This document shows positions 2,662-32,855 of a DNA stretch of 64,000 nt, one piece after another. Numbering within the stretch: position 1 is the first letter of the stretch; every line of letters starts with the position of its first letter. Location of the stretch: the NCBI RefSeq assembly GCF_015277855.1, contig NZ_CP063812.1, positions 434,001 through 498,000 on the forward strand. The letters run 5' to 3'. Position numbers and translations under genes: made by a program. Origin of the DNA: Microbacterium cremeum. Lineage in GTDB: Bacteria; Actinomycetota; Actinomycetes; Actinomycetales; Microbacteriaceae. Below the pieces are notes generated by a model that made no database searches, was not told where the DNA came from, and saw only the letters and a list, made by a program, of their open reading frames with translations.

Positions 2662-3738
2662 ATGACGAGGGTGCCGACACCGGCCGAAACCGAGGCCGTG
2701 CGCGCGGCCCGCACCTGGAAGCTGGGCGAGACGCCGTGGCAGGTCATCCCGCCGATCGGCGCCCCGCGGGCGCGCGTCATCGTCGACAACGACTTCTCGG
2801 GCGATCCCGACGACCTCTACCAGCTCGTCCATCACGTGCTGTCGCCGAGCGTGGACGTGCGGCTGGTGGTCGCCTCGCACCTCAGGCCGGGGGATCCGTT
2901 CGATCCCGGCGAGCAGCAGGCCGCCAACGCCGCCGCGGTCGCGCGCGACGTCTTCGCCCGCATGGGCCTGGAGTCGGCCGACGCGATCGTGGAGGGGGCG
3001 AACGAGCCGCTGAGCGACCGCGCCACCCCCCGACCTGCGCCGGCCGTCGACGCGATCATCGCCGAGGCGCTTCGCGACGACGTCGCCACCCCGCTCTTCT
3101 ACGTCGCCGGCGGCGGACTCACCGACCTCGCGTCGGCGTGGCTTCGAGAGCCGCGGATCGCCGAGCGCCTCACGCTGGTCTGGATCGGCGGCGGCGAACA
3201 CGAGGGTCTGGCGGTGCCGCCGCCCGGTGCGATGCCGATCGAGTACAACCTCCTCATCGACGTGGCCGCCGCGCAGGTCGTCTTCGCCGATTCGGCGATC
3301 CCGGTCTGGCAGGTGCCGCGCGACGTCTACCGGCAGTGCCTCGTGTCGGACGCCGAGCTGCGCCTGCGCGTCGCCACGGCCGGCCCGCTCGGCCGCTACC
3401 TCTACGACGAGGTCGCCGAGGTCATGCGCGCGGTCTCGTCGTACCTCGGCGGCGCCGCCGAGACCTACGCGCTCGGGGACTCCCCGCTCGTCCTGCTGAC
3501 GGCACTGCAGTCGGTCTTCGAGCCCGACCCGGCGTCGAGCCGGTACGTGGCGCGGCCCACGCCCGCGATCGGCGACGACGGCGGGTACGTCGACGTCGCC
3601 GGCGCGCGACCGATGCGCGTGTACACGTGGGTCGACACGCGTCTGATGTTCGAGGACCTGTACCTCAAGCTCGCCGAGTTCGGCCGGTGGCAGACGGCGA
3701 CGGATGCCGCGACCGCCGCATGGGAGGTGACCCGATGA
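2662..3738 (+). CDS. Inosine-uridine-preferring nucleoside hydrolase-like protein
   Basis: Hydrolase of 358 aa that probably cleaves an N-ribosidic or related bond. Residues 42-51 read DNDFSGDPDD, equivalent to the Asp-rich calcium and ribose site (DTDPGxDDA) of the nucleoside hydrolase family; the middle region (LFYVAGGGLTDLA, then LTLVWIGGGEHEG) matches the family core. There is no signal peptide, so it should be cytoplasmic. The ATG at 2662 follows GGAGGAG by about 5 nt. It overlaps the next gene by 4 nt (ATGA), so the pair is co-translated. The Asp cluster differs slightly from the classical motif, so a substrate other than purine or pyrimidine nucleosides is possible. Regulation by the upstream FadR-type protein is inferred from the operator at 2604. 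Confidence 0.82.
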   Translation: MTRVPTPAETEAVRAARTWKLGETPWQVIPPIGAPRARVIVDNDFSGDPDDLYQLVHHVLSPSVDVRLVVASHLRPGDPFDPGEQQAANAAAVARDVFARMGLESADAIVEGANEPLSDRATPRPAPAVDAIIAEALRDDVATPLFYVAGGGLTDLASAWLREPRIAERLTLVWIGGGEHEGLAVPPPGAMPIEYNLLIDVAAAQVVFADSAIPVWQVPRDVYRQCLVSDAELRLRVATAGPLGRYLYDEVAEVMRAVSSYLGGAAETYALGDSPLVLLTALQSVFEPDPASSRYVARPTPAIGDDGGYVDVAGARPMRVYTWVDTRLMFEDLYLKLAEFGRWQTATDAATAAWEVTR

Positions 3739-19157: not shown

Positions 19158-20024
19158 ATGACCCCGGGCGATCAGTTCGGTCCGACGGGCGTCGCGGCTT
19201 CGGGGGCACCGCCGTTCGCGGTGGCCGGTCCGACGCAGCTCGCGCTCGACGCATCGCGCAGCGGGGCGGGGTCGTTCACGGTGTCGAACGTGACGGGGCG
19301 CCCGGTGCGGGCGCGGCTGCTCGTGACGCCGGGGGCGGGGGCGGATGCCTCGTGGTTCGCGATCGGCGGAGGCCCCGAGCGCGCGCTGCCCCTGGCCGGC
19401 ACGGCGACCGTCGAGGTCGCGGTGACCGTGCCGGGCGATGTCGCGGCGGGCGCGTACTCGTTCACCGTCGGCGCTGCGCTCGAGGAGGCCCCCGACCAGG
19501 TCGTGCCCGGTCCGACCGTTGCCCTCACGGTGCCGGCCGCGCAGCCCCGGAGGTTCCCGTGGTGGATCGTGATCGTCGCCGCCGTGGCCCTCCTGCTCCT
19601 CGTCGGCGGCGGCATCCTGATCTGGATCCTCACGCGCCCCGGCCCGCAGCCCGAACCGACCCCGGCCGACACCGGTCCGCCGGTGCTGCGCACCGATGAG
19701 CTGCTCATGGAGTTCTCGCCGCTGGATCTTGATCTCGACCTCGACGGCGTGCAGGACCTCACCATCTTCGACGCCGACCTGAACGTCGTGCCGTTCGATC
19801 GTCCGACGACGGTCTTCGGCCTGATGCGCGGCGTCGCGATCGTCGACGACCCTCGCTTCGAGGTGTGCCGCGAGGTGTTCCTTCAGGAGTCGGTCGACAT
19901 CGCGGACGCCGCGGCGACCACGTTCGTGTGCGTCTTCACGAGCGAGGGCCACGCGGGCCTGCTCGAGATCGGCGCGACCGGGGCCGACCAGACCAGGACG
20001 ATCGCCGTGACGGTGTGGGAGTGA
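19158..20024 (+). CDS. Bitopic membrane protein with N-terminal Ig-like domain (copy 1)
   Basis: Protein of 288 aa with no recognised family name. Residues about 15-125 form an Ig-like beta domain (FTVSNVTGRPVRARLLVTPG, then AGAYSFTVGAALEEAP). A basic stretch precedes one hydrophobic helix at about 134-157 (FPWWIVIVAAVALLLLVGGG). A Pro-rich spacer and a C-terminal domain with two Cys (FEVC and FVCVF) follow. Positive charges before the helix suggest N-terminus inside and C-terminus outside, where the Cys could pair. The next gene is a paralogue with a nearly identical N-terminal half. The pair heads the contractile-injection locus, so an adaptor or anchor for the device is plausible but unproven. 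The Shine-Dalgarno is weak. Confidence 0.7.
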   Translation: MTPGDQFGPTGVAASGAPPFAVAGPTQLALDASRSGAGSFTVSNVTGRPVRARLLVTPGAGADASWFAIGGGPERALPLAGTATVEVAVTVPGDVAAGAYSFTVGAALEEAPDQVVPGPTVALTVPAAQPRRFPWWIVIVAAVALLLLVGGGILIWILTRPGPQPEPTPADTGPPVLRTDELLMEFSPLDLDLDLDGVQDLTIFDADLNVVPFDRPTTVFGLMRGVAIVDDPRFEVCREVFLQESVDIADAAATTFVCVFTSEGHAGLLEIGATGADQTRTIAVTVWE

Positions 20025-20063
20025 TCATGCGGGGAGTGCGAGCACGAGTCGAGGAGGTCTGCC

Positions 20064-20975
20064 ATGGGTGTCGCATCCGGTGACGGATTCGGTCCGGAGG
20101 GGCCGACGGCCTCGGGCGCGCCGCCCTTCGCGGTCGCGGGTCCGACGCAGGTGGCCCTGGACCCCGCGCGCACCGGGACGGGGTCGTTCACGGTGTCGAA
20201 CGTGTCGGGGCGTCCCGTGCGCGCTCGGCTGCTCGTGATGCCGGGGGCGGGGGCCGATGCCTCGTGGTTCACGATCGAGGGCGGCCCGGAGCGGGCGCTG
20301 CCGCTGGCGGGCACGGCCACGGTCGACGTCGCAGTGAGCGTGCCGGGCGAGGTCACGCCGGGCGGGTACTCGTTCACCGTCGGGGCGGCGCTCGAGGAGG
20401 CCCCCGACCAGGTGGTGCCCGGTCCGACGGTCGCGCTGACGGTGCCCGCCGCTCGCCGGCGGAAGTTCCCGTGGTGGATCGTGATCGTCGCCGCGGTGGC
20501 ACTCGTCCTGCTCATCGGCGCCGGTGCGGCGGTGTGGCTGCTGACGCGTCCCGATCCGCAGCCGGACCCCACGCCCACGCCCACGAGCACGCACGACGTG
20601 TTCGCCCAGTACTCGTTCCCCGCGTTCGGCAACCTGTCGTACGACCTGGACGGCGAGCGCGCGGTGGACTACTCGGTCGAGTTCGAGATCGCCGACCTGT
20701 ACTTCTCGGGCGCGTTGCACGGCACCGGGTTCCTGAGCGTCGTCGGCTACGGCAACGCGTCGCTCGCCGTCGTCGACGATCCGACCTTCGAGGCGTGCGA
20801 GAGCGCGCTGGACTACACGACCGGCGAGCCGATCACGATCCCGGCCGAGGCCGAGACCTTCGTGTGCGTGCGCTTCACCGATCAGGAACGCCGTGCGCTC
20901 ATGGCGTTCCAGCCGAGCGAGCCGGCGACCGGCCTGCACGTCGTCGACACGACGGTGTGGGCTCGCGGCGAGTAG
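20064..20975 (+). CDS. Bitopic membrane protein with N-terminal Ig-like domain (copy 2)
   Basis: Paralogue of the preceding gene, 303 aa. The N-terminal Ig-like domain and the membrane helix (FPWWIVIVAAVALVLLIGAG) are almost the same as in copy 1. The C-terminal domain has diverged but keeps the pattern DDPxFExC ... TFVCV and ends in TTVW, against VTVW in copy 1. The start at 20064 follows GAGGAGGT by 6 nt. The topology is predicted as Ig domain in the cytoplasm and Cys-containing domain outside. The duplication with a conserved inner half and a changed outer half suggests a constant partner in the cytoplasm and a variable outside partner. No database family could be assigned by eye. Confidence 0.7.
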   Translation: MGVASGDGFGPEGPTASGAPPFAVAGPTQVALDPARTGTGSFTVSNVSGRPVRARLLVMPGAGADASWFTIEGGPERALPLAGTATVDVAVSVPGEVTPGGYSFTVGAALEEAPDQVVPGPTVALTVPAARRRKFPWWIVIVAAVALVLLIGAGAAVWLLTRPDPQPDPTPTPTSTHDVFAQYSFPAFGNLSYDLDGERAVDYSVEFEIADLYFSGALHGTGFLSVVGYGNASLAVVDDPTFEACESALDYTTGEPITIPAEAETFVCVRFTDQERRALMAFQPSEPATGLHVVDTTVWARGE

Positions 20976-21038
20976 CGCGCGAAGGTATCTGCGCGAGGAC
21001 CTCGGTGCTCTTCCAGGTGTACGGAGAGGTGCGGACCC

Positions 21039-21758
21039 ATGACTCGCAGGGATGACGTCGGCCAGGACTACCAGCTGGCCCTCGCTCCCGTCCGCGCGTG
21101 GGCGCAGGACGTGACCGGCCTGAAGGTCGTCGACGACTGGGACGCGGGCGACGAGGGTGCGAGCGCCGTCGTGCTCCGGCCGCTGGCGCTCGCCGTTGCT
21201 GCGGCATCCGGTCCCGTGCTGCGACAGGTGAGCAGCGCCGAGCTCCTACTCGACCTGCTCGTGACCGTCATCGCCCCCACCGCGAGCGAGGCTGCCGCGG
21301 CGACGAGCGACCTCGCGCTCGCGGCGCAGAGCGAGAACGACTGGGCGATCGCGTCCGACGCGCCCGGCCTCGACCTGTGGCGCGCCCTCGGGCAGCCGCC
21401 GGTGCCCGCGATCGTGCTGCGAGTGCCGGTGCGGCGCGTCATCGAGCGCGACCCGGCACCTCTCGTGCGCGAACCCCTGCGGCGGACGTTCGTGCCGCTG
21501 CGGATGGTCACGGGTCGGGTCGTGTGGCCGGACGGGCGGCCGATCTCGGCGGCCCGCGTGTCGCTGGCCGAGGCCGACGGCCCGCCGGCGACGACCGACC
21601 ACCGCGGACGGTTCCGGATGCCTCTTGCCACGGCATCCGACGAGCTCACGGTGAGCATCACGGCGCGTGGCGCGTCGGTGCAGCTTCGGCTCGCGGCATC
21701 CGCCCTGGGTGCCGCGGGCGACCTCGGAGACCTGCGGGTCCCCGTTCCCACTGGATAA
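21039..21758 (+). CDS. Pvc16/DUF4255-like cap protein with carboxypeptidase-regulatory-like domain
   Basis: Protein of 239 aa. Residues 1-145 (LRPLALAVAAASGPVLRQVS, then LLLDLLVTVIAPTASEA, then PPVPAIVLRVPVRR) resemble the N-terminal domain of the tail-terminator or cap proteins of contractile injection systems (Pvc16, DUF4255). Residues about 155-239 are a compact beta domain (VTGRVVWPDGRPISAARVSL, then TTDHRGRFRMPL) like a carboxypeptidase regulatory or CNA-B domain. It lies 18 bp before the sheath gene, the usual neighbourhood for this component. The start at 21039 follows GGAGAGGT. The cap assignment rests on position plus weak similarity; the C-terminal domain is clear. Confidence 0.55.
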   Translation: MTRRDDVGQDYQLALAPVRAWAQDVTGLKVVDDWDAGDEGASAVVLRPLALAVAAASGPVLRQVSSAELLLDLLVTVIAPTASEAAAATSDLALAAQSENDWAIASDAPGLDLWRALGQPPVPAIVLRVPVRRVIERDPAPLVREPLRRTFVPLRMVTGRVVWPDGRPISAARVSLAEADGPPATTDHRGRFRMPLATASDELTVSITARGASVQLRLAASALGAAGDLGDLRVPVPTG

Positions 21759-21776
21759 CGCCGAGAAAGGCTCGAC

Positions 21777-23075
21777 ATGCCCCAATATCTGACACCGGGC
21801 GTCTACGTCGAAGAACTCATGGGCGGTGCACGCCCGATCGAAGGGGTCGGCACCGAGATCGCCGCCTTCGTGGGGTTCGTCGACGACGACGAGGCGCCGA
21901 GAGGCGTCCCCACGTCCGTCAACAACTGGACGCAGTACACCAGCATCTTCGGGACGGAGGGCCCCAGCACGCCGCTGACGCTGGCGGTGCACGGCTTCTT
22001 CCTCAACGGAGGCCAGCGCTGCTACGTCCTCAACGTCGGGCCCGACGGCACCGTCGGGGGCACACCCGGCGAGCCCGGCATCTCGGCTCTCGAGCACATC
22101 GACGAGATCGCGATCGTCGCTGCGCCCGGCATGACGGATGCCGCGTCCTACGACGCCGTGCTGAGCCACTGCGAGCTCATGAGAGACCGCGTCGCCGTTC
22201 TCGACGGGCCCGCGCACGTCGACGACCTGAACGACCTCATCCGGCCCGCGACGATGTCGACACCATCGGCGGCGAGCGCGTCGTCGAGTTCGTCCTCGAG
22301 TTCGCCCTCGGGGTCATCGGCGGGGTCGGAGGAGTCGACCGGGGAGGGCGAGGAGGGATCGGCGCCCCCGCCGCCCGCACCGACCCCGCGACGCGGCGGT
22401 GGCAGTGGAGGTCCCGGGGGCGGGATGGCCCGCGCGTCGGAATGGGGAGCGGAGTACGTCCCTTGGATCTCTGTGGTCGACCCGCTCACCGGAACCCTCG
22501 TCGAGGCACCGCCGTCCGGGCATGTCGCCGGAGTGTGGGCGCGCACCGACGGCAGCCGCGGCGTGCACAAGGCCCCCGCGAACGAGACGGTGCGCGGTGC
22601 GCTCGATCTCACTCGCGCGTTCACGCCGAGCGAGCAGGGACTGCTCAACAGCGCCGGGATCAACGCCATCCGCAACATCCACGGCAGCATCAAGATCTGG
22701 GGCGCGCGCACGCTCGCCGGCAGCGCCAGCGAGTGGCGCTACCTGCCGGTGCGCCGCCTCTTCGCGTTCGCCGAGGAGTCGATCCAGCAGGGCACCGGGT
22801 GGGTCGTCTTCGAGCCCAACGATCAGGTGCTGTGGAACGCCATCCGACGTGACGTGCGCGGGTTCCTGCGCCGGCTGTGGCGCGACGGAGCCCTGATGGG
22901 CGCGACCGAGCGCGAGGCGTTCTTCGTCAAGTGCGACGCCGAGACGAATCCGCAGGAGAACATCGACGCCGGCATCGTGACGGCCCTCATCGGCATGGCG
23001 CCGGTCAAGCCTGCCGAATTCATCGTGTTCAAGGTGAGCCAGTACACGGCCGCCGCAGGAGAGGAAGCACAGTGA
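21777..23075 (+). CDS. Contractile tail sheath protein
   Basis: Sheath subunit of 432 aa that surrounds the inner tube and drives contraction. It starts with the classical sheath motif YLTPGVYVEE, continues with GVGTEIAAFVGF and the domain that contacts neighbours, and ends with the conserved C-terminal handshake region (GSIKIWGARTLA, then WRYLPVRRLFAFAEESIQQG, then TNPQENIDAG). Between about residues 160 and 220 a Ser-, Gly- and Pro-rich segment replaces or extends a surface domain, so the protein is at the short end for sheaths. The GTG of the tube gene overlaps its stop by 4 nt. Only one sheath gene is present, while many extracellular systems have two or three. Confidence 0.93.
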   Translation: MPQYLTPGVYVEELMGGARPIEGVGTEIAAFVGFVDDDEAPRGVPTSVNNWTQYTSIFGTEGPSTPLTLAVHGFFLNGGQRCYVLNVGPDGTVGGTPGEPGISALEHIDEIAIVAAPGMTDAASYDAVLSHCELMRDRVAVLDGPAHVDDLNDLIRPATMSTPSAASASSSSSSSSPSGSSAGSEESTGEGEEGSAPPPPAPTPRRGGGSGGPGGGMARASEWGAEYVPWISVVDPLTGTLVEAPPSGHVAGVWARTDGSRGVHKAPANETVRGALDLTRAFTPSEQGLLNSAGINAIRNIHGSIKIWGARTLAGSASEWRYLPVRRLFAFAEESIQQGTGWVVFEPNDQVLWNAIRRDVRGFLRRLWRDGALMGATEREAFFVKCDAETNPQENIDAGIVTALIGMAPVKPAEFIVFKVSQYTAAAGEEAQ

Positions 23076-23557
23076 GCGACGCATCGGCGGCCACAGGGAC
23101 GGCGGCCGCGAAGAGCCAATGGGTCGACCCGTTCGGGGTCTACAACTTCAAACTCATGATCAGTGGGATGGCGGTGGGACACTTCACCGAATGCTCGGCG
23201 CCACAGGTCTCGATCGACACGGTCGAGTACCGCGAGGCCGGGCAGTCGCAGGTCGTGCACCACATCCCGACGATCACGACACACGGCGAGATCTCGTTGA
23301 AGCAGGGCCTTACCCGCTCGACGGAGCTGTGGGACTGGTTCATGGCGACCGCGGCGGGCGAGATCCGGCGGCTGCCGGTCTCGATCATCCTGCTCGACTC
23401 GCGGGGCACGACGCCGGTCGTGCAGTGGGACCTGTTCGACGCCCTCCCGGTTCGATGGTCCGGAGCCACCCTGCGCGCGACCGCGCGCGAGGTCTACGTC
23501 CAGGAGTTCGCGCTGAAGTACGAGTCGATCGAGAGGGTCGGGGCGCGCGATGCCTGA
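23072..23557 (+). CDS. Contractile tail tube protein (T4 gp19-like)
   Basis: Inner tube subunit of 161 aa, the normal length. It contains the family hallmarks DPFGVYNFKLMISGMAVGHF, FTECSAPQVSIDTVEYREAG and HGEISLKQGLTRSTELWDWF. The hexameric tube formed by such proteins is the conduit pushed through the target membrane. The GTG at 23072 overlaps the sheath stop by 4 nt, matching the tight sheath-tube coupling seen in these loci. The next gene starts 8 nt before its stop. Confidence 0.93.
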   Translation: MSDASAATGTAAAKSQWVDPFGVYNFKLMISGMAVGHFTECSAPQVSIDTVEYREAGQSQVVHHIPTITTHGEISLKQGLTRSTELWDWFMATAAGEIRRLPVSIILLDSRGTTPVVQWDLFDALPVRWSGATLRATAREVYVQEFALKYESIERVGARDA

Positions 23558-24638
23558 CAGCCGCCGATCCGCTCCCCGGCGAGGAGTCGCCGGGTTCGCG
23601 CGGCGCGTGACGGCGGCGCTCGCCGAGGCCTGGCGCGTGCTCCGGGACGGCCCGCCGCCGCCGGATGATCCGCGGCTGGCCGAGGCCGACTCCGGGCTCG
23701 CCGCGTACGTCGCGGCACACGACCCGGAGTGGTTCGCGATCGACGTGGACGATCCGTCGCGCGCCGGGCATCCGGAGGCTCGCGGGTCGCGACACGCGGC
23801 GTCGCCACCTCGACCCCGCGTGTTGCGCCACTCGAACGCCGGCGCGACGGCGACGGATGCCGGGGCCGACGGCCCCGACGGCGCCAGGGCCGACGGACCC
23901 GACGGACCCGCCGCGGAAGCGGAACCGACGCCGAGCGACGCTCGCGGGTCGCGACACGCGGCGTCGCCACCCCGACCCCGCGTGTTGCGCCACTCGAACG
24001 CCGGTGCTGCGAGGGCAGCCGAGGGGCCGGTGGCGGGGGACGAGGACGCGAGTGCGTCGCCGCCGCCGCGCGTGAGCTTCCGCGCGCCCGAGGCGACGAG
24101 CGCCCGGGCCTCGTCGGGGCATCGGTCGCCTGAGCAGATGACCTCGCCTGCGGGCCCGGCCGCGGCATCCGTTCGCGTGCACGACGGCGATTCCGCCGCA
24201 CCGCCGCCGGTGGGCCACGCCACGCCGCCCACCGCGGGCAGCCCGGACGATGGCCGTCTTTCACCGGTCCCCACCGCACCGCCGACGCCGATGACCGAGG
24301 AGGCATCGGTCGTCCGCGAGGAGCCGGGACTGCGGCATCCGTGGACACCGCCCGCCACCGGGGCACCTCGCGACGACGCGACCGCCGTGCTTCGCGAGCC
24401 CGGCCGCCCGGACGCCGGGCTTGCCGTCGAGCCCCCGGGCACGGCCGGCTCGCCGCGGCCGCATGCGACCGTGACCGCGGCGCGGCCGCGCGCACCTCGG
24501 CCACATCTCGCCACCGCAGGACGATGGCCCGATCTGCCGGAACCGCGCGACGACCGCGACGACCGCAGCGCCGGAAGGCTCGCGTGGAGCACGATCGTCG
24601 CCCGTGACGCCCTCGTCGAGGAGCAGCGGAGGATCTGA
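23550..24638 (+). CDS. Low-complexity protein of the contractile locus, unknown
   Basis: Protein of 362 aa that I do not recognise. Only the ends look folded: residues 1-70 (FARRVTAALAEAWRVLRDGP, then YVAAHDPEWFAIDVD) and the last 25 (GRLAWSTIVARDALVEEQRR). The middle is rich in Pro, Ala, Asp and Arg and is probably disordered. It holds two 65-bp direct repeats (23778-23842 and 23940-24004) that encode the same run ARGSRHAASPPRPRVLRHSN. Each is internally palindromic, which suggests an inserted element expanded in frame. Overlap with the tube gene and a 1-nt overlap with the LysM gene show that it belongs to the machine. Its position equals that of Pvc6-type small proteins, but no similarity supports that name. 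Confidence 0.65.
   Translation: MPDSRRSAPRRGVAGFARRVTAALAEAWRVLRDGPPPPDDPRLAEADSGLAAYVAAHDPEWFAIDVDDPSRAGHPEARGSRHAASPPRPRVLRHSNAGATATDAGADGPDGARADGPDGPAAEAEPTPSDARGSRHAASPPRPRVLRHSNAGAARAAEGPVAGDEDASASPPPRVSFRAPEATSARASSGHRSPEQMTSPAGPAAASVRVHDGDSAAPPPVGHATPPTAGSPDDGRLSPVPTAPPTPMTEEASVVREEPGLRHPWTPPATGAPRDDATAVLREPGRPDAGLAVEPPGTAGSPRPHATVTAARPRAPRPHLATAGRWPDLPEPRDDRDDRSAGRLAWSTIVARDALVEEQRRI
23778..24004. repeat. Two 65-bp palindromic direct repeats inside a reading frame
   Basis: Copies at 23778-23842 and 23940-24004 (162 bp apart) differ at one position. In copy 1 the arms CGCGACACGCGG (23788-23799) and CCGCGTGTTGCG (23816-23827) pair with one mismatch. The element resembles a REP-type palindrome that has become coding sequence. 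Confidence 0.8.
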
Positions 24639-25468
24639 TGGAACGCGTCGCGTTCATCGTCGAGGAGACCGGCGAGCGGATCTCGTGCATGCTCAACCCC
24701 GAGCACATCGTGCATCGGCGCTCGGCCGGACTCGCGCCGCGTCGCAGCGGCTCGGGCATCGTCTCGGGTCAGGGGCTGAGCGACGCGCCGCTGCTGCACA
24801 CCGGCGGCGGCCGCACCGAGCTCGACCTTCAGCTGCTGTTCGACGTCGACCTCGTTCCGCAGCCGCTCGTGCCGACGCCGTCTCCTCCCGGCACCGCGAC
24901 GACCGACGCCGCGGTCGCGCCCGCGCCGCCGCTGCGCCCGCGGCGTCGCGACGTGCGCGACTACACGCGGCCGCTGTGGCAGCTCGCCGAGAACACCGAC
25001 CTCGCCGGGCGCGGCGCGCCGCACGTGCGCATGGTGCTCGGCAAGGGCTGGAACATGCTCGCGGTCGTGGAGTCGCTGTCCGAGCGGTTCGAGAAGTTCG
25101 ACGCGAGCGGCACCCCGGGCCGGTCGTGGCTGTCGATGCGCCTCGTGCGCGTGCCCGATCCGAATCCGCCGGCACCCGAGACCGCTCCGGCAGTGCGGAT
25201 TCCGGATGCCGCGGCCGCCGTCGCCGCGGCGGCCGAGCCCGCCGCGGTCCACGCCGTCGTCGGGGCCGGCGCCGACGAGAACGGCGACGCGGCCGGCGGC
25301 GAGACGCTGCCGGAGCTGGCCGCGCGCTACTTCGGCGGACGCTCCGCCCTGTGGCGCTGGATCGCCGACGTGAACGTGCTCGACGACGTCATCTGGCCCG
25401 AGCCCGGGCGTGACCTCATCATCCCGGCGGCGCCCGAGGACCTCGCTCGACCGGAGGACGCGAGATGA
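24638..25468 (+). CDS. LysM-containing tube-baseplate adaptor (Pvc7-like)
   Basis: Protein of 276 aa linking the tube to the hub. The N-terminal part (MERVAFIVEETGERISCML, then LLFDVDLV, then DYTRPLWQLAE, then VRMVLGKGWNMLAVVESLSE) matches the CIS tube-adaptor domain. After an Ala/Pro-rich linker the C-terminal 50 residues (GETLPELAARYFGGRSALWR, then DVIWPEPGRDLIIPA) form a LysM domain, which in phage and injection-system adaptors helps assemble the hub and need not touch peptidoglycan. It overlaps both neighbours. Length and order agree with the seventh gene of the Photorhabdus PVC cluster. Confidence 0.87.
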   Translation: MERVAFIVEETGERISCMLNPEHIVHRRSAGLAPRRSGSGIVSGQGLSDAPLLHTGGGRTELDLQLLFDVDLVPQPLVPTPSPPGTATTDAAVAPAPPLRPRRRDVRDYTRPLWQLAENTDLAGRGAPHVRMVLGKGWNMLAVVESLSERFEKFDASGTPGRSWLSMRLVRVPDPNPPAPETAPAVRIPDAAAAVAAAAEPAAVHAVVGAGADENGDAAGGETLPELAARYFGGRSALWRWIADVNVLDDVIWPEPGRDLIIPAAPEDLARPEDAR

Positions 25469-27009
25469 GCCTCCCGGTCGTGCTGCCCGCGCCCGCCCCG
25501 GCGCAGATGCCGGGCGTGCGGCTGCGCGTCGCGGGCGCCGAGGTCGATCCTGTCGGCGTCGGCATGCTCACGACCGTCCGCGTGCGCCGCGAGGCGAGCG
25601 CGCCCGCCGTCTGCGCGGTCACGTTCGACGATCCCGCGGGCGCTGCCGAGCTCGAGCGGCTCCTCGCACCGGGAGTCGATGTCGAAGTCGGCGTCGACGG
25701 CTTCGCCGAGCCGCTCTTCACGGGTGACGTCGTCGTGCTCGAGCGCGCCTTCCGGCCCGACGGGACGATGCTGCTGACCGCGCGATGCCAGGACGCCGCG
25801 CACCGGCTGCGCGCCGACTCGAGGATGCGGGCCTTCGTGGACGTGTCGGTCGCCGAGCTGGCGCGCGACCTCGTCGCGCCGGCGGGCCTCGACGTGCAGG
25901 CGCCCGACGAAGGACCGCGGATGCCGCGACTGCTGCAGGACGGCCGAACGGCGCTCGACCTGCTCACGCACGCGACGCGACGTGCCGGCCTGTGGTGGCA
26001 GATCGACGCCGCCGGCAGCACGCTGCGCCTGTTCGACAGGGCCGGGACCGGGCGCGAGGCGACCGCGGCGTACGGCCGGGACCTCGTCGAGGCCGTCGTG
26101 ACGACGAGCGCGCTCGCGCATCGCTCGGGGTGGCGGGTGCTCGGCTGGGATCCGGTGACGGGGGAGGTCGCGGGAGGATCCGCCGATGCCGCGGTCGACG
26201 ATGCCGAGGCGCGGGAGGGCGTCCTCGGCGGGAGCCTGACCGCCGGGGTGGACCACGCCGACGCGCTGGCGCGGGGACTCGCCGCCGACGAGGAGGCCGC
26301 GAGTCGCGGCATCCGTGCCGTCGTCGAAGGCGACCCGGCGCTCGCGCCCGGGACCGTCCTCACGGTCGCCGGGCTGACGCCCGACGCGTCGGCGAGCTTT
26401 CTGCTGCTCGCCGCGGACCACGTGATCGACACGGTCGGCGGCTACACGTGCACGGTCTCGTCGCACCCGCCCGAGCACCTCCAACTGCGGAGCGTGGCCG
26501 GGCGGCCGTGGTCGAGAAGCGAGGCGGCGGTCACCGTCGGCGAGGTGCTGCGCATCGACGATCCGGAAGGCCGCGGCCGGGTTCGCGTGACGCTGCCCGC
26601 CTACGACGGCCTCGAGAGCGAGTGGCTGCCGGTGCTCGCGCTCGGCGCCGGCGAGTCCAAGGGGCTCGCACTGCAGCCGGACGTGGGCGACCACGTCGTG
26701 GTGGCCCACGACGCGTGGGATGCCGGGCGCGGCGTCGTGCTCGGAGGCCTGCGCTCGTCCGACGGCGGCGAGCCGGGCGTGGGCGTCGTCGACGGCGCGG
26801 TCGGGGTCTACGGCCTGCGCCTGCCCACCGGGCAGTCGCTGCGTCTCAGCGCCGACGGCGACGCGGTCGCCGCGGCGAACAGCGGCGGGAGCCGCGTCGA
26901 GCTGACGGAGGACGGCATCGTCGTGCACGCCGCCGGCGACCTCGTGGTGGAGGCGCCCGGACGGACCTTGACGCTGCGCGCGAAGCGCATCGAGATGGAG
27001 CAGGCGTGA
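25465..27009 (+). CDS. VgrG/Pvc8-like hub and spike protein
   Basis: Central hub and spike of 514 aa. Residues about 15-335 correspond to the gp27-like hub (VRREASAPAVCAVTFDDPAG, then HRLRADSRMRAFVDVSVAEL, then ALDLLTHATRRAGLWWQID). Residues about 350-455 match the gp5 OB-fold (VGEVLRIDDPEGRGRVRVTL, then ESEWLPVLALGAG, then PDVGDHVVVA). The last 60 residues (LRLPTGQSLRLSADG, then VELTEDGIVVHAAGDLVVEA) form the start of the beta-helical needle. It overlaps the LysM gene by 4 nt and shares one base with the tip gene. Confidence 0.9.
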   Translation: MSLPVVLPAPAPAQMPGVRLRVAGAEVDPVGVGMLTTVRVRREASAPAVCAVTFDDPAGAAELERLLAPGVDVEVGVDGFAEPLFTGDVVVLERAFRPDGTMLLTARCQDAAHRLRADSRMRAFVDVSVAELARDLVAPAGLDVQAPDEGPRMPRLLQDGRTALDLLTHATRRAGLWWQIDAAGSTLRLFDRAGTGREATAAYGRDLVEAVVTTSALAHRSGWRVLGWDPVTGEVAGGSADAAVDDAEAREGVLGGSLTAGVDHADALARGLAADEEAASRGIRAVVEGDPALAPGTVLTVAGLTPDASASFLLLAADHVIDTVGGYTCTVSSHPPEHLQLRSVAGRPWSRSEAAVTVGEVLRIDDPEGRGRVRVTLPAYDGLESEWLPVLALGAGESKGLALQPDVGDHVVVAHDAWDAGRGVVLGGLRSSDGGEPGVGVVDGAVGVYGLRLPTGQSLRLSADGDAVAAANSGGSRVELTEDGIVVHAAGDLVVEAPGRTLTLRAKRIEMEQA

Positions 27010-27353
27010 TGTGGTACTGGCTGACGATCGACGCGGATCTGAGATGCGCGCACAAGCTCGGCAGGGTCCAGGTCGTCGCGCCCGAGGAGTTCGTCTTCGT
27101 CGGCGGCCGGCCGGTCGTCACGGGCGACGACCCGATCGGACGCCCCGTGAAGGGCTGCCCGAACGTCAGCATCAACATCAAGCCATGCACCGAGACGGTC
27201 GATGTGAAGAAGGGCCGGTCGGGCTTCGTCACCATCGCGGGTCGCCCGGTCGTCCGCGCCGACCTGTCGGGTCTCACCGACGGCACGCCGCAGGGCGGGG
27301 TGTCGTACGAGGTGGAGCATCCCGGCCAGGTGCTCGTGAAGGAGGCGCCATGA
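27009..27353 (+). CDS. PAAR-like spike-tip protein
   Basis: Small protein of 114 aa located exactly where spike-tip genes occur, between the VgrG-like hub and the gp25-like wedge. It has spaced Cys/His residues (RCAHKLG, VKGCPN, IKPCT) and repeated turns of the type GGRPVV and AGRPVVRADLSGLTDGTPQG, resembling PAAR-like or DUF4280-like proteins that bind a metal and sharpen the spike. The classical PAAR tetrapeptide is absent. The ATG at 27009 is used; a GTG three bases upstream is also possible. The next gene starts 4 nt before its stop. The function is inferred from position and the Cys/His pattern. Confidence 0.68.
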   Translation: MWYWLTIDADLRCAHKLGRVQVVAPEEFVFVGGRPVVTGDDPIGRPVKGCPNVSINIKPCTETVDVKKGRSGFVTIAGRPVVRADLSGLTDGTPQGGVSYEVEHPGQVLVKEAP

Positions 27354-27796
27354 CCCCGCAGGCTCCGACGCGGCGCACGCCCCCGGTCTCGACGGGGTGG
27401 CGCTTCGGACACCCCGACTTCGACGACGGGCTCAGTGGCGTCACGATCGCGCCGACCGGCCGCGTCGACCTCGTGCACGGCGCCGACGCTGTGCGGCAGT
27501 CGCTCATGCTGCTGCTGTCGACGACTCCGGGCGAGCGCGTGATGCGCCCCGACTACGGCTGCGACCTCGCGAAGCTCGTCTTCTCGCCGGGTGACGACAC
27601 GACGGCAGGCCTCGCCATCCACTACGTCCGGCGCGCGGTGCAGCGGTTCGAGCCGCGCGTCGTGGTGCTCGCGGTCGACGCCGGCCCCGCGCCCGATGCC
27701 CCCGACCGGCTGGAGGTCGTACTCGACTACCGGCCGAGGCTGGGCGGACCCGCCGACCGCCTCGTCGCCGCCATCCCCCTCCAGGGAGGTGCCTGA
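27350..27796 (+). CDS. Baseplate wedge protein, gp25/GPW family
   Basis: Protein of 148 aa. The signature of the gp25-like family is clear: QSLMLLLSTTPGERVMRPDY followed by GCDLAKLVFSPGD. In contractile systems this protein starts sheath assembly at the baseplate. It overlaps the tip gene by 4 nt and ends 1 nt before the baseplate-J start. Confidence 0.92.
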   Translation: MTPQAPTRRTPPVSTGWRFGHPDFDDGLSGVTIAPTGRVDLVHGADAVRQSLMLLLSTTPGERVMRPDYGCDLAKLVFSPGDDTTAGLAIHYVRRAVQRFEPRVVVLAVDAGPAPDAPDRLEVVLDYRPRLGGPADRLVAAIPLQGGA

Positions 27797-27797
27797 C

Positions 27798-30365
27798 ATG
27801 CCCATGCCGATCCCGAACCTCGACGACCGCGACTTCGACCGGCTCGTATCCGACGCCAAGGCGATGATCGCCGCACGCAGTCCCGAATGGACCGACCTCT
27901 CGCCGGGCGACCCGGGCATCACCCTCCTCGAGGTATTCGCGTACCTCACCGACACCCTGCTCTACCGCGTGAACCGGCTGCCCGAGAAGGCCTTCGTGCA
28001 GTTTCTCGAACTCATCGGGGTTCGCGTCATGCCGCCGGCCGCGGCATCCGTCGATCTGGAGTTCTCGCTCGCGACGCCCGCCGCGACCGACGTCGTCATC
28101 CCGCGCGGCAGCCACGTCTCGACGGCGCGGGCGGATGCCGAGTCCCCCGTCTTCACCACGGTCGAGGATGCCCGCATCGCTGCGGGCGATCGCTCCGCCG
28201 TCGTGCGCGCGTACGCAGGCGAGGTCGTCGAGGCGGAGGATCTCGGCGAGGGCACGGGCAAGCCGGGACAGTCGGTGCGGGTCGCCCGACCGCCCATCAC
28301 CCTGCCGACGGGCGACGTCTTCGATCTCGTCGTCGGGGTGCAGGCCGAACCGGGTGAACTCGGCGACCGGGCCCCCGCCCGCGAGCACCGCGGCGCGACG
28401 TACCGCATCTGGACCGAGGTCGAGCACTTCGGCGCTCCGCCCGCCCCCGGTGAGGACGCCCACCGCTACACGGTCGATCGCGCCGAGGGCGTGATCATGT
28501 TCGCCCCCGCGGCGCAGCTCGCCCAGCCCGACGGCGCGCTCACCGCCCAGCCCGTCGCGCTCGCCGAGGTGCCCGCCCACGGCCGGCGGATCGTCGCGTG
28601 GTACCGCCGCGGCGGCGGCGCGAACGGCAACGTCGCTCCGGGCGCGCTCACGACCCTGAAGGACCCCGTACCAGGCGTGACGGTCACGAACCCCGCGGCT
28701 GCGACGGGTGGGCGCGATCGCGAGACGCTCGAGAACGCGATGGTCCGCGGGCCCCAGTCGATCCACACGCTCGACCGCGTCGTCACGGCGCGCGACTACG
28801 AGCAGTTCGCGGTGGCCTCCAGCGGCGGGGTGTCGCGTGCGCGAGCCGTGACGAGGGCGGATGCCTGGACCGGCGCGACACCCGGAGAGGTCCAGGTGTA
28901 CGTGGTCCCGGGTCTTGCCGACCCCGGCAGCGCGGCGGTCGATCGCGCCTCTCTCGACGCCGCGATGACACCACACGTGCTCGACCGGCTGGCGGCCGCG
29001 CTGCACGAGCGGCAGCCGATCGGGGCGCGCGTCGGGGTGACCTGGGCCGGGCTCATGCCCATGCGGGTGCACGCCTCGGTCGTGGTGCACCGCGCCGAGG
29101 ACCGCGCCGCCGTCGAGCGACGCCTGCGCGAGCGGCTCGACCGCATGCTCTCGCCGGTGCCGCTGGAGGGGGCCACCGGCTGGCCGTTCGGCGAGCACCT
29201 GCGGGTGGCGCGCGTCTACGACGCCCTGCAGAGCGAGCGCGGCGTGCGGTACGTCTCCGACGTGAAGCTGGTCGTCGAGGAGGTTCCCGGGGTCGTGCCG
29301 TCGGTCGTGCGCGATCCGAACCACCCGCGCACCTGGTTCTGCGCGAGCGGCGCGCGCGTGTTCCGCAGCGTCGACGATGCGACGGGCTGGGTCGCCGTCG
29401 CCCGCTTCGAGGGCGAGGCTGTGGAGCGCGTCGCCGTGCTGGCCACGGCACCCGGGTGCGTCGTCGCCAGCACACGGCTGGGCGAGACCGAGTCGAGCCT
29501 CGTCCGCGCGTCGTTCGACTACGGCGAGACGTGGACGCGCATCGCACAGTTCGAATTCCACGTCGAAGAGGTGGCGCTCGCCGTCATCGAAGGCACGCCG
29601 CACGCGTTCCTGGCGACGGACGCGGGACTCTTCCGCCAGCCTCTCGCCGAGGGGGCGGTCGGCGACCGCATCCTCGTGGCCGCCGAGGACGCCGGCATGG
29701 GCTTCTACGCGGTCACGACCGTCGTCGACTCGTCGGGGTCGCTGCGGGTGGCGGCCGCCGCCCAGGAGCTGAAGGGCGTCTACCTCTCGCTCGAAGCGGG
29801 GCGTCCGGGCACATTCACCCACATCGGGCTCGAAGCCCAGGACATCCGCGTGCTGCGCACGCTCGAACTGGCCAATCGCCGCTTCCTCGTCGCGGGAGCG
29901 TACGCGACCGGTCAGGAGGAGGGCGCCGGCGTCTTCCGCGTCGAGCTGATCGGCACCGAACTGGACGCCAAGGGGTGGGAGGCCGCCGGGGCGAAATGGA
30001 CCGGCGGCAGCTGCCGCGACATCGCCTTCATCGGCGAGACGATCCTCGCGGCCACCGAGCGTGCCGGCATCGCGGTCGCCAACCCGAGGCAGGAGAGCGG
30101 AACCTGGCGCACGCCGACCCGCGACTGCGGCCTGCCGCTGCGGGAGTCCGGCGCCTTCCAGGCGCTCTACAGCGTCGCCGCGGGCGACACGGTCCCTCCG
30201 CTCGCGCTGGCCGGCGGCCCCGACGGGGTCTTCCGCAGCGGCGACGGCCGCGGCTGGCGCCTGGCGTCGCCGGGGGAGTTCACCGATGAGGTGTCGCTGC
30301 CGCCCAACTGGCTGTTCGCGCCGGGCGTCCACGAGATCGAGGTGGAGTACGGCGATGCGGGCTGA
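27798..30365 (+). CDS. Baseplate J-like protein with C-terminal propeller-like extension
   Basis: Wedge protein of 855 aa. Residues 1-500 are baseplate-J/gp6-like (SPEWTDLSPGDPGITLLEVF, then YLTDTLLYRVNRLPEKAFVQ, then IHTLDRVVTARDYEQFA). From about 505 to 850 the sequence changes to repeated short blades (TWFCASGARVFRSVDDATGW, FDYGETWTRIAQ, LATDAGLFRQPL, GGPDGVFRSGDGRGWRLAS), each with the Asp-box-like pattern of BNR/sialidase-type propellers. Such a fusion is unusual and could serve as a target-binding or scaffold domain in place of separate fibres. The start at 27798 follows GGGAGGT by 7 nt. The next gene begins 11 nt before its stop. Confidence 0.87.
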   Translation: MPMPIPNLDDRDFDRLVSDAKAMIAARSPEWTDLSPGDPGITLLEVFAYLTDTLLYRVNRLPEKAFVQFLELIGVRVMPPAAASVDLEFSLATPAATDVVIPRGSHVSTARADAESPVFTTVEDARIAAGDRSAVVRAYAGEVVEAEDLGEGTGKPGQSVRVARPPITLPTGDVFDLVVGVQAEPGELGDRAPAREHRGATYRIWTEVEHFGAPPAPGEDAHRYTVDRAEGVIMFAPAAQLAQPDGALTAQPVALAEVPAHGRRIVAWYRRGGGANGNVAPGALTTLKDPVPGVTVTNPAAATGGRDRETLENAMVRGPQSIHTLDRVVTARDYEQFAVASSGGVSRARAVTRADAWTGATPGEVQVYVVPGLADPGSAAVDRASLDAAMTPHVLDRLAAALHERQPIGARVGVTWAGLMPMRVHASVVVHRAEDRAAVERRLRERLDRMLSPVPLEGATGWPFGEHLRVARVYDALQSERGVRYVSDVKLVVEEVPGVVPSVVRDPNHPRTWFCASGARVFRSVDDATGWVAVARFEGEAVERVAVLATAPGCVVASTRLGETESSLVRASFDYGETWTRIAQFEFHVEEVALAVIEGTPHAFLATDAGLFRQPLAEGAVGDRILVAAEDAGMGFYAVTTVVDSSGSLRVAAAAQELKGVYLSLEAGRPGTFTHIGLEAQDIRVLRTLELANRRFLVAGAYATGQEEGAGVFRVELIGTELDAKGWEAAGAKWTGGSCRDIAFIGETILAATERAGIAVANPRQESGTWRTPTRDCGLPLRESGAFQALYSVAAGDTVPPLALAGGPDGVFRSGDGRGWRLASPGEFTDEVSLPPNWLFAPGVHEIEVEYGDAG

Positions 30366-31272
30366 CCGGATCGCCCGCCTCCTGCCGGACGTGTACCGGC
30401 GCGCCATCGTGCCCGGGACTCCGCTCGCGGCACTCGTCGACGTGATGGCGGAGCAGCACGCGCCGGTCGAACAGGCGCTCGCCGATCTGCCGGACTACTT
30501 CGACCCGCAGCGCGCGCCCGATCACTTCGTGCCCTTCCTCGCGCACTGGGTCGATCTGGCACGGTGGCTCGACGACGCGTCGGGCGAGTTCGACACGGGC
30601 CCGGGGCGCCTGCGCCAGGTCGTCGCCGGCGCGGCGGCTCTGTCGCGGCGCCGGGGAACCGCGCGCGGGCTGCGCGAGGCACTGGAGTGGGCGACGGGTG
30701 TTGCGGGCGTGCGGGTCGAAGAGACGGCTCCGGTCCCCACGCCCTCTCCGCACAGCGCTGGTGCGCTGCGCGGAGCCTCCGGGCGCGAGGGCCCGGCCGG
30801 GGGCGTGGGCCCGGCCGGGGGCCGGGGGCGCAGGTTCCACGCGAGGGTCGTGCTGCCGCACGCCGCGTCCGCATACGAACCGCTGGTGCGGCGGATCGTG
30901 GAGCAGGAGAAGCCCGCGCATGTGACCGTGGAGATCGTGTTCGAGGACGCGACCCCGAGCGGGCCGGACGGCCCGGGGGCGACCGGCGGCACCGAGGCGT
31001 CGGAGGTTCCCGAGCCGCCTGAGCCGCCGACCCTGCCGGTCGAGGCGCCTCCGGCTCCGCCCGAGCCCGCCTTCCCAGGGACGGAGCGACTGCCGGTGAT
31101 CTCCCACGCGCCGGCCGAGCCGCCACCGCTGCCTCCGGGTGCCGCGCTGGCCGAGCCGATCACCGGCGGGCTGCCGCCTTCGCCCGCCGATCCGGCCGAC
31201 GCTGCGGCATCCGCCCCCACGATCGCGGTGGAGCGGCCGCCGCGCCCCGACGCGGAACCGGCCGGCCGATGA
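30355..31272 (+). CDS. Tail protein I-like baseplate component with Pro-rich tail (Pvc12-like)
   Basis: Protein of 305 aa. Residues 1-120 match the P2 gpI/phage tail domain found in injection systems (ARLLPDVYRRAIVPGTPLAA, then YFDPQRAPDHFVPFLAHWVD, then LSRRRGTARGLREALEWATG). A second segment (FHARVVLPHAASAYEPLVRR, then IVEQEKPAHVTVEIVF) completes the domain. A tail of about 100 residues rich in Pro, Glu and Ala follows and is probably disordered. It overlaps the baseplate-J gene by 11 nt and the following membrane protein by 4 nt. A disordered C-terminus on this component is unusual and may tether something. Confidence 0.82.
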   Translation: MRADRIARLLPDVYRRAIVPGTPLAALVDVMAEQHAPVEQALADLPDYFDPQRAPDHFVPFLAHWVDLARWLDDASGEFDTGPGRLRQVVAGAAALSRRRGTARGLREALEWATGVAGVRVEETAPVPTPSPHSAGALRGASGREGPAGGVGPAGGRGRRFHARVVLPHAASAYEPLVRRIVEQEKPAHVTVEIVFEDATPSGPDGPGATGGTEASEVPEPPEPPTLPVEAPPAPPEPAFPGTERLPVISHAPAEPPPLPPGAALAEPITGGLPPSPADPADAAASAPTIAVERPPRPDAEPAGR

Positions 31273-31769
31273 ACGTCAAGTTCTTCGTCGTCGTGCTCGT
31301 GGCCCTCGTCGTCGCGGCCGTGCTCGTGATCTTCTATGGCGCGGTGCGGCCCCCGGCGACGCCCGACGACGCCCGCGGCGGTGTCGAGGGGCCCCTCGGC
31401 TGGCTCGACAGGAGCCGCACGCTGACGTTCGCCGACGTCGCGGATGCGCCGTGCGCGATCGAAGAACTCGAGACGCTCTTCGTGCCGGCGCAGACGGCGT
31501 GCGACATCGAGCTGCCGGAGCCGGCGCGTCTCGTGCTCTGCACCGACGCCCCCGACGCGATGATCGTGCGCACGAAGGGGTCGCAGTATCCCGCGCAGGA
31601 CGTGGACTCCGCAGACCTCTCGTGTACGGAGCCCGAGCCGATTCCCGTCTACGACGACGGCACCGTCCTCACCCTCACGTGCGTCGCGGTCGCGGATGAA
31701 TGCGTGGTGCGGGTGCTGTCGCCCGAGGACGCGAATTCCGCCAGGGGGAGGACTAGGGTGGCCGCGTGA
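31269..31769 (+). CDS. Single-pass membrane or secreted Cys-rich protein, unknown
   Basis: Protein of 166 aa that I cannot place in a family. A hydrophobic N-terminal helix at residues 5-25 (FFVVVLVALVVAAVLVIFYG) is followed by an outside domain with six Cys (APCAIEE, TACDIE, VLCTDA, LSCTEP, LTCVAVADECV), suggesting disulfides outside the cell. It overlaps the tail-I gene by 4 nt and the next small membrane gene by 4 nt, so it is transcribed with the injection machinery. With the two bitopic proteins at the other end of the locus it points to a membrane-linked device. Confidence 0.68.
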   Translation: MNVKFFVVVLVALVVAAVLVIFYGAVRPPATPDDARGGVEGPLGWLDRSRTLTFADVADAPCAIEELETLFVPAQTACDIELPEPARLVLCTDAPDAMIVRTKGSQYPAQDVDSADLSCTEPEPIPVYDDGTVLTLTCVAVADECVVRVLSPEDANSARGRTRVAA

Positions 31770-31972
31770 AGCGAATCTGGCCGTTCGTGGTCGTCGGTGT
31801 GATCCTGAGCGCCGTGGGGCTGGTGTGGACGCTGCAGGGTCTGGGCGTGCTGGGCGGGTCGGCGATGAGCGGCTCCGCGCTGTGGGCGATCATCGGCCCG
31901 ATCGTCCTGGTGGCGGGACTGGTGCTGATCGGGATCGGTATCGCGCGCCGCCGTCGCAGCGGGGCCTCCTGA
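31766..31972 (+). CDS. Small two-helix membrane protein
   Basis: Protein of 68 aa with two hydrophobic helices (WPFVVVGVILSAVGLVWTL and ALWAIIGPIVLVAGLVLIG) and a basic C-terminus. The GTG at 31766 overlaps the previous stop. It also has TAGGGT at 31754-31759 with a 6-nt gap, so it may additionally be made from a leaderless transcript of its own. Similar short membrane proteins are common in actinobacteria without known function. It closes the plus-strand run. Confidence 0.65.
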   Translation: MKRIWPFVVVGVILSAVGLVWTLQGLGVLGGSAMSGSALWAIIGPIVLVAGLVLIGIGIARRRRSGAS

Positions 31973-32018: not shown

Positions 32019-32855
32019 TCACGTGGCGAGCGGGCTGTCGCTCTCGTCGGCCTGGCGCAGCGGCCCGCCCGCCTGGCGGGCGAGGTTCAGCTGCTTGAGG
32101 AGCGCGATGATGCCTCCGACGAACAGCAGCAGCGCCCACACCGTCCCGACGATCGCCGTGACGAGGGCCGCCACCGCGTCGGTGATGCTCACGAGGATGA
32201 TCGGCACGATCGAATGCAGCACCATCGTGACGAACGTCAGCAGCAGGGCGAGCAGGAGGAAGACGACAAGGCGCTTGTTTCCCAGCATCCGTCGCTCGGC
32301 CACGACGAGGAAGACGACGGCCGCGAGCTGCAGCACGAGCACGAGCCCGAGTACTGCGGCCGAGGCCCAGATGTCGAAGAAGCCGAAGATCGCCAGATAG
32401 GCCAGCGTGCCGAACGGCGCGGCGAGGAAGAGCGTCACCATCGCCGTCAGCGCGACGAACGCGAAGATCGCCATCACGAAGCCGGCGATCGTGGCGACCA
32501 GGCCCCCGACGAGGCTCACGATCCCGTTCACGAGCGCGGTCGCGCGGTGGCCGATGAGGGCGGGCAGTGCCATGAGGGCGACGGTGAGGAGCAGCAGGCC
32601 GACCGGGAGGACGAGATAGGGGATGCCGAGACCCGGCGGATCCGTCGCCTCGCCGAACGCGCCCTCTTCGCCGAGAGTCGCGAGCTCGTCCGGTCCGATG
32701 CCGTCGGGCAGGTCGGCGCCGGGAGAGGTGAGCGCGGCGATGCGCTCGCCGAGCGGCGGCGGCGAGATCGACAGACCCGCACCGACGCACGCGAGGACCG
32801 CGAGCAGGATCGCCGCGACGGCGACCCACAGCGCCCAGCGGCGAAGGCTGTCCAC
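32019..32855 (-). CDS. Polytopic membrane protein, unknown
   Basis: Protein of 278 aa with about six hydrophobic helices: one at the N-terminus, a loop of about 45 residues, then helices around residues 80-100, 108-135, 140-185, 195-220 and 232-255. No catalytic motif is recognised. The GTG at 32855 has no clear Shine-Dalgarno. It lies 28 bp after a smaller membrane protein on the same strand, suggesting a two-gene unit. It converges with the injection-system operon, leaving 46 bp. Confidence 0.65.
   Translation of the reverse strand: MDSLRRWALWVAVAAILLAVLACVGAGLSISPPPLGERIAALTSPGADLPDGIGPDELATLGEEGAFGEATDPPGLGIPYLVLPVGLLLLTVALMALPALIGHRATALVNGIVSLVGGLVATIAGFVMAIFAFVALTAMVTLFLAAPFGTLAYLAIFGFFDIWASAAVLGLVLVLQLAAVVFLVVAERRMLGNKRLVVFLLLALLLTFVTMVLHSIVPIILVSITDAVAALVTAIVGTVWALLLFVGGIIALLKQLNLARQAGGPLRQADESDSPLAT

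Follow-up and report, generated by a model that had tools for sequence, protein, structure and literature searches.

A compact contractile injection system in Microbacterium cremeum and in loci of five phyla, with one tube gene and a conserved set of membrane proteins

How few parts can a contractile injection machine be built from, and where in the cell would so small a machine work? The question is raised by a locus of Microbacterium cremeum in a stretch of 64,000 nucleotides that we analysed as a whole (the window: contig NZ_CP063812.1, positions 434,001 to 498,000; coordinates below are those of the window), which encodes between 21039 and 31272 a contractile injection system (CIS) consisting of a sheath, one tube protein, an adaptor, a VgrG hub, a tip, gp25, baseplate J and tail-I. 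The host genome is a single contig of 3.98 Mb, and its only match to the sheath family PF04984 is gene D of this cluster (gene letters as in Table 1). We find that the locus belongs to a compact CIS lineage with membrane proteins of its own, and with moderate confidence, judging from sequence, we favor the reading that the system stays in the cell that makes it and acts while docked at the cytoplasmic membrane.

Relatives were collected by a pattern scan over one genome per species, which yielded at least 587 confirmed sheath relatives, and the best 80 of these were kept. Our compact set (n = 29) comprises 22 of the 80, recognized by their gene module, two further loci (L094 and L095), four plasmid loci, and the window; the 62 "other" loci include short contigs, the fragments L090-L093, and three compact-type sheaths on short contigs (L016, L018, and L019) that are treated as compact in the trees and as other in the gene counts. 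A sheath tree with 89 rows has a branch that parts the 31 compact rows from all the others, with a Shimodaira-Hasegawa-like approximate likelihood ratio test (SH-aLRT) value of 95; a first tree likewise put 30 compact rows of 87 on one side of a branch (SH-aLRT 94). Both are quick, unrooted trees in which the program flagged many long branches: a length filter removed 4 of 91 rows from the first, including the compact L025 and L039, while the second, built from profile envelopes, kept L025 and dropped only L039 (whose sheath is split) and L091. A first-pass annotation of this DNA had suggested a small, possibly distinct lineage and had named a sheath phylogeny as a check; the tree agrees, yet the suggestion was too modest, since the lineage is spread over five phyla rather than being local.

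The module C-D-E-F-G-H-I-J-K-L plus the membrane protein A occurs in loci of those five phyla: in Catellatospora, Allorhizocola, Rhizocola, Actinopolymorpha alba, Micromonospora, Arthrobacter, an Ardenticatenaceae metagenome-assembled genome (MAG), Ktedonobacter, Acidobacterium, a Gammaproteobacteria MAG, Caballeronia, and a Chromatiaceae MAG. Jannaschia has the module without an A match, and in an Alphaproteobacteria MAG the module is cut inside H. The Ktedonobacter sheath (L039:9989-11280) runs over two overlapping frames, a frameshift or an assembly error. Deinococcus, Rhodovulum, and Paracoccus carry compact systems on plasmids, which are 67-239 kb in size (L104-L107); C was not detected by profile in the two Rhodovulum loci, and the Rhodovulum MB263 plasmid has a VgrG/PAAR pair upstream of its compact CIS. 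Within the genus, close relatives were found among 149 sampled genomes (the window's included) only in G119 (75%) and G110 (71%), and seven other genomes gave partial sheath matches only (41-56%). When six genes flanking the cluster in the window were compared with the stretches of G119 and G110 reaching a few kb past the cluster, O alone was common to them. This patchy distribution fits transfer of the compact CIS.

Two features of the gene content separate the compact loci from the rest. The first is the number of tube genes: a single one in each of the 28 compact loci counted, as also in the window, against two or more in 30 of the 31 other loci of at least 19 kb. The compact loci thus lack the second tube gene (Cis1 and Cis5) of extracellular or Cis15-bearing CISs. 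The single tube protein of the window scores better with the CIS5 model (2.9e-27) than with CIS1 (8.8e-7), both under the NCBIfam cut-offs. The second is the CIS AAA+ ATPase (Cis15). A profile grown from the ATPases of Streptomyces loci has no match in any of the 29 compact loci but matches 28 of the 62 others (22 of 31 among those of at least 19 kb); it supersedes an earlier and crude Walker motif scan by open reading frame (ORF) count, which gave 0 of 24 compact and 21 of 62 other loci. The genomes of the window and of G119 have only a distant AAA match (E = 4.3e-9 and 3.4e-10), to a protein of ~690 codons that we presume, purely as a guess, to be FtsH. The Microbacterium genome G110 (L092, L095, and L096) holds a compact CIS and also a second CIS with its ATPase, a strong match (7.1e-69) lying near that second CIS. 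Upstream on the Deinococcus plasmid, the annotation has an "AAA family ATPase" of 224 codons, which does not match the CIS ATPase profile.

A third feature is the fusion of baseplate J to an Asp-box β-propeller in gene K. The assignment comes from the sequence, whose propeller profile matches BNR/Asp-box proteins among solved structures, distantly, and from the strands of a confident predicted model (mean predicted local distance difference test, pLDDT, 87.7) whose C-terminal part is almost wholly strands. The propeller is present on K in the window, in all 23 loci that reach K among 24 further compact loci, and in the four plasmid loci (the baseplate-J part of K is broken over frames in L012), and its profile matches nothing in the 62 other CIS loci. 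Its occurrence also follows that of the membrane protein O. O was found in 3 of 149 genomes of a genus sample, the same three that have full-length K, with a fourth genome matching only the baseplate-J part; in 3 of 376 genomes of a phylum sample, the same three with the full-length propeller (E < 1e-100), while 18 other genomes had partial propeller matches (2.3e-15 to 9.6e-9) and none of them had O; and, together with the propeller, in the same 4 of 391 genomes of an order sample (O at 1e-8, propeller at 1e-30). These samples overlap, the window genome being in each, and together they hold eight distinct genomes with O and the full-length propeller and zero with O alone.

The membrane proteins A, M, and O are, on the evidence of these comparisons, conserved parts of the compact system rather than its boundaries. 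The profile of O, run on the 29 compact and 62 other loci, matches 22 compact loci (window included; 24 sequences with another seed) and 0 others; the strand and side of O vary between loci, but it is never more than ~5 kb away from the core. In a protein search, 8000 candidates were scored with the O profile, and 228 proved to be relatives; a single one of the 120 that were listed, a fusion, carries a Pfam domain. The M profile matches 20 of 29 compact loci (window included) and 0 of 62 others. The earlier description of the cluster as bounded by membrane proteins thus holds in that such proteins are present, though they are more than boundaries, and the interval given then, 19158 to 31972, covers the CIS core but stops short of O, which lies past its end at 32019-32855 on the reverse strand.

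Protein A is present twice in the window, and these are the only two matches of its profile in the host genome. It stands upstream of the core in Microbacterium, in one to three copies, and after L elsewhere. The AlphaFold model of A1 (mean pLDDT 91.4, predicted TM-score, pTM, 0.50) has an N-terminal β-sandwich, one helix, and a β-rich C-terminal domain, and in Foldseek the N-terminal part resembles the immunoglobulin-like (Ig) folds of PapD/MSP/ASH proteins (2e6j, TMt 0.68, root-mean-square deviation [rmsd] 3.4; 6fvi, TMt 0.52, rmsd 5.5); single-domain matches were used, and whole-chain alignments with rmsd >20 were set aside. Charge bias puts the Ig domain inside, that is, it is predicted to be cytoplasmic: the N-terminal flank of the transmembrane (TM) helix is more positive than the C-terminal flank in 40 of the 45 A proteins with a detected helix (1 of 46 lacks one), and our script flagged no early hydrophobic stretch in A. 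The ectodomains are exchanged between loci: of 49 A proteins, 17 carry PASTA, a peptidoglycan-binding module in other proteins, and 1 carries Kelch, and A1 and A2 have another, unnamed domain. To the eye, Micromonospora A ectodomains resemble carbohydrate-binding sandwiches, but the one scanned alone (L013) gave no such Pfam match, and the resemblance is not claimed. In two Streptomyces-type loci (L048:8196-9530 and L071:7838-9184), an Ig-like protein with a hydrophobic stretch before its C-terminal part lies directly upstream of the sheath and matches A weakly (E ~5e-5).

Table 1. Genes of the compact CIS locus and their assignments.
Gene	Assignment	Position	Strand	Basis
A1	bitopic; predicted Ig domain (residues 20-125), TM helix (135-158), beta-rich ectodomain (176-287)	19158..20024	+	predicted model, Foldseek, compact-locus homologs
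A2	paralog of A1, same layout	20064..20975	+	59% identity to A1
C	cap/Pvc16-like by position; CarboxypepD_reg domain	21039..21758	+	PF13620 5.1e-8; C profile matches proteins in other CIS loci
D	tail sheath with low-complexity Ser/Pro/Gly insert	21777..23075	+	PF04984 2.6e-16, PF17482 3.6e-16; phrog_23 1.5e-58
E	single inner-tube protein	23072..23557	+	PF06841 1.6e-31
F	long Pro/Ala-rich protein, 362 aa	23550..24638	+	ORF at the same place in other compact loci
G	CIS_tube / LysM-type tube-spike adaptor	24638..25468	+	PF19266 5.2e-8; no LysM family match
H	VgrG-like hub/spike	25465..27009	+	PF04717 (Phage_base_V) 9.5e-15, PF05954 (Phage_GPD); NF033848 6.3e-32, under its cut-off
I	PAAR-position tip protein	27009..27353	+	size, order, homology to other loci; no family match
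J	gp25-like baseplate wedge / sheath initiator	27350..27796	+	GPW_gp25 PF04965 1.5e-22
K	baseplate J (residues 1-~490) fused to Asp-box beta-propeller (~500-851)	27798..30365	+	PF04865 1.6e-16, TIGR02243 3.8e-75
L	tail-I baseplate protein, Pro-rich C-terminus	30355..31272	+	Tail_P2_I PF09684 1.1e-11; 9gtp_E 4.9e-6
M	small bitopic protein, N-terminal TM helix, Cys-containing ectodomain	31269..31769	+	Catellatospora-homolog profile 4.7e-19
N	68 aa, hydrophobic stretches; membership unsure	31766..31972	+	overlaps M
O	polytopic, 7 hydrophobic stretches (hydropathy); conserved partner	32019..32855	-	homologs in compact loci

Genes in the cluster were called by their start sites and codon-position composition. 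Between the sheath and 31972, neighboring genes overlap by 1-11 bases at 9 of 10 junctions, as the first-pass annotation had noticed; the exception is a 1-base gap between J and K. The profile search proposed in that annotation was carried out as well, and the core proteins match CIS and phage-tail families of Pfam, NCBIfam, and PHROGs at the places expected of them; TIGR02241, TIGR02242, and TIGR02243 exceed their NCBIfam cut-offs in the cluster. Of the genes named there, the sheath, tube, adaptor, hub, gp25, baseplate-J, and tail-I are recovered by profiles, the adaptor by the CIS_tube family and not by a LysM one, while the tip has no family match. A profile of I locates the gene behind H in 23 of the 24 other loci, the exception being L030, which is cut inside H. 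C has no match to a CIS family or to Pvc16 and no solved relative, and is named by its size, order, and homology to proteins of other loci. The N profile finds no homolog in 24 other compact loci.

F, which follows the tube gene, has no family match in Pfam. An F-type ORF of 171-679 aa occupies this position in 23 of the 24 other compact loci, and in L012 it is split over two frames. In 19 of 20 F proteins measured, 69-86% of the residues are P, A, S, G, T, E, D, Q, or R (41% in L021); the protein starts with a basic/hydrophobic stretch, and a short C-terminal motif closes most F proteins. In the window, a 22-residue direct repeat, RGSRHAASPPRPRVLRHSNAGA, occurs twice (23781-23846 and 23943-24008). 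F is probably disordered, and its layout is that expected of a length-setting or plugging protein, which makes it a candidate for a tape measure or plug.

How might such a system work? The compact loci have their own membrane-protein set, in the relatives as well as in the window, which suggests work at the producer's own membrane rather than release. In Streptomyces, the bitopic protein CisA is encoded after the baseplate genes and is required for firing (PMC12237407, in the accessible text), and T6SS-mode CISs of haloarchaea (T6SS, type VI secretion system) are distinguished by a conserved multi-TM protein, the proposed membrane anchor, in 29 of 41 clusters (PMC11566945, in the part available). 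The compact lineage has proteins of both kinds, and it is on this ground that we favor a membrane-docked, cell-associated machine. In such a machine, A would span the membrane, its cytoplasmic Ig domain holding or sensing the baseplate (the point of contact being, perhaps, the rim of the K propeller or the tail of L), and its ectodomain, often PASTA, holding or sensing the cell wall; O and M would form a membrane platform; and F would measure or plug the tube. A wall or contact signal would then make the sheath contract and drive the tube outward through the platform, and the tube would enter a neighbor, or pierce the cell's own envelope and end the cell.

Several observations weigh against membrane docking. 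No effector or immunity gene was recognized in the family searches, which were the only searches made for them. PASTA is present in no more than 17 of 49 A proteins and in neither A1 nor A2 of the window, and L028 has no A match at all. The M profile misses 9 of 29 compact loci, although small TM proteins too divergent to score lie near the place of M in L020, L021, L025, L105, and L106; and O was missed in 7 of 29, five of these being stretches that end within ~300 bases of M, one a stretch cut earlier, and one L014. Proteins in 5 Streptomyces-type loci give weak matches to the A Ig profile (E = 5e-5 to 8e-4), and thus an Ig-plus-TM protein is not wholly peculiar to the compact lineage. A could instead be a sensor, an adhesin, or cargo; an injected toxin is unlikely, because its cytoplasmic domain is constant and its named ectodomains are binding modules.

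The alternative that survives best, though we hold it unlikely, is a free-floating cytoplasmic CIS of the Streptomyces kind, fired under stress, which would contact the membrane via A as via CisA and kill or remodel its own cell. The nearest solved relatives of the sheath, baseplate J, and tail-I are all from one CIS (8bky, 8bl4, and 9gtp), which we take to be that of Streptomyces; for the tube they are 9rce and 9r9h, with 9gtp third. A shares the topology of CisA and, outside Microbacterium, its position, a likeness judged by layout. Upstream of 9 of the 29 compact loci, and of none of the 62 others, caspase-fold protease genes (CHAT or C14) were also found: CHAT in L002-L008, which are related actinobacteria, and C14 in L020 and L021. 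However, the sheath tree sets the compact rows apart from the Streptomyces group, the compact loci have one tube gene and no ATPase match, M and O are unmatched in other loci, and no caspase-fold match was found in the window or two other Microbacterium loci. Because compact loci supplied the seeds of the caspase-fold profiles, the comparison with other loci is tilted toward the compact ones; for this reason, and because the CHAT loci are related and the window has none, we do not use the association as main evidence, and in those hosts it leans toward a setting of self-death or defense. PADLOC gave scattered matches in 92 flank proteins (caspase 3, Pycsar cyclase 2, others 1-2), which we take to indicate no clear defense setting.

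We also noted that the CHAT gene of L002-L008 adjoins a second family common to the same seven loci (for example, L002:6633-9185 and 5304-6617), whose L002 member is a subtilase. The C14 genes upstream of compact CISs are at L020:5443-7455 and 2958-4241 and at L021:6055-8862 (Acidobacterium and a Gammaproteobacteria MAG).

Less probable still is a classical extracellular CIS (eCIS) that leaves the cell by lysis and binds its receptor through A or the K propeller. The swapping of A ectodomains between loci (PASTA, Kelch, and the unnamed domain) is what binding domains would show, and fibre genes lie downstream of tail-I in ~90% of cases (PMC12923769, in the accessible text). Yet A has a TM helix and a single constant domain on the cytoplasmic side, and such a protein is unlikely to travel on a released particle; nor was a fibre or lysis family matched in the cluster with Pfam, PHROGs, and NCBIfam, a search that did not include the published fibre-anchor profiles.

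A prophage remnant or tailocin is so improbable that we set it aside: the tail genes do match phage families (PHROGs), but none of 50,697 phage records covers 80% of the sheath and none covers 80% of K (partial matches only, in 909 records for the sheath and 6 for K), a viral-contig pattern scan gave no confirmed relative of K, and the gene order is constant over five phyla, membrane proteins included. In PHROGs, neither the 10 proteins C to L nor 10 flanking proteins of the window match head, terminase, portal, or lysis families (4 of the 10 flanking proteins match PHROGs of unknown function or "esterase"), so the first-pass view that this is not a prophage is upheld, and the phage-record search agrees. 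Its exclusion of a type VI system stands too. A T6SS of types i-iii was rejected by a search confined to the cluster, whose proteins include no TssJLM or ClpV family; NCBIfam models of TssE and VgrG match the cluster only under their cut-offs.

The compact lineage was not recognized in the CIS literature that we searched, although the main eCIS catalogue (Chen 2019) may list some of the loci, and the literature search found no paper joining the PASTA domain to contractile injection. As given in the accessible text of the two surveys, one eCIS filter requires ten or more core genes together with one of Afp12, 13, 14, or 16 (PMC8213781), and a CIS filter asks for listed baseplate, tube, and sheath-initiator categories (PMC12210884); such filters may have kept the compact lineage out. 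Returning to membrane docking, we propose tentatively a wider possibility, a class of membrane-docked CIS that arose apart from the T6SS, in which an ATPase-less phage-tail core is joined to an A/M/O platform and exchangeable ectodomains facing wall or glycan set the trigger, in monoderm and diderm bacteria and on plasmids. If true, it would indicate how short the parts list of an injection machine can be, and would be a second route from phage tails to membrane-anchored weapons or self-destruction devices; A, M, and O would be a named, co-occurring set for testing how a CIS that has neither fibres nor the T6SS membrane complex locates a membrane and fires across it.

Among the closest known systems is the Streptomyces-type CIS (lineage IId, CIS-Sc), which has what we take to be the best or only solved relatives of the compact sheath, baseplate J, and tail-I and likewise a bitopic membrane protein after the baseplate genes (CisA; A outside Microbacterium). 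The compact systems differ from it in their own sheath branch (SH-aLRT 94 and 95), one tube, the absence of an ATPase match, the fusion of baseplate J to a propeller, and M and O, which are unmatched in the 62 other loci. With the CIS of Halogeometricum borinquense they share a phage-tail-like machine plus a conserved multi-TM protein, but that system has 14 structural genes, with an ATPase among those in the figure legend (PMC11566945, in the part available). The T6SS of types i-iii is alike in working at the membrane, if the compact CIS is indeed docked, and unlike in its TssJLM and ClpV families.

With the Photorhabdus virulence cassettes (PVC) and the antifeeding prophage (Afp), the core order sheath-tube-adaptor-VgrG-gp25-J is common, and to that extent the first-pass label "PVC-like" is apt; it misleads in that the second tube, the AAA+ ATPase, and recognizable tail fibres are missing here. 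PVC and Afp have several sheath and tube paralogs (the Pvc1-5 and Afp1-5 entries), possess an ATPase and fibres, and are released from the cell.

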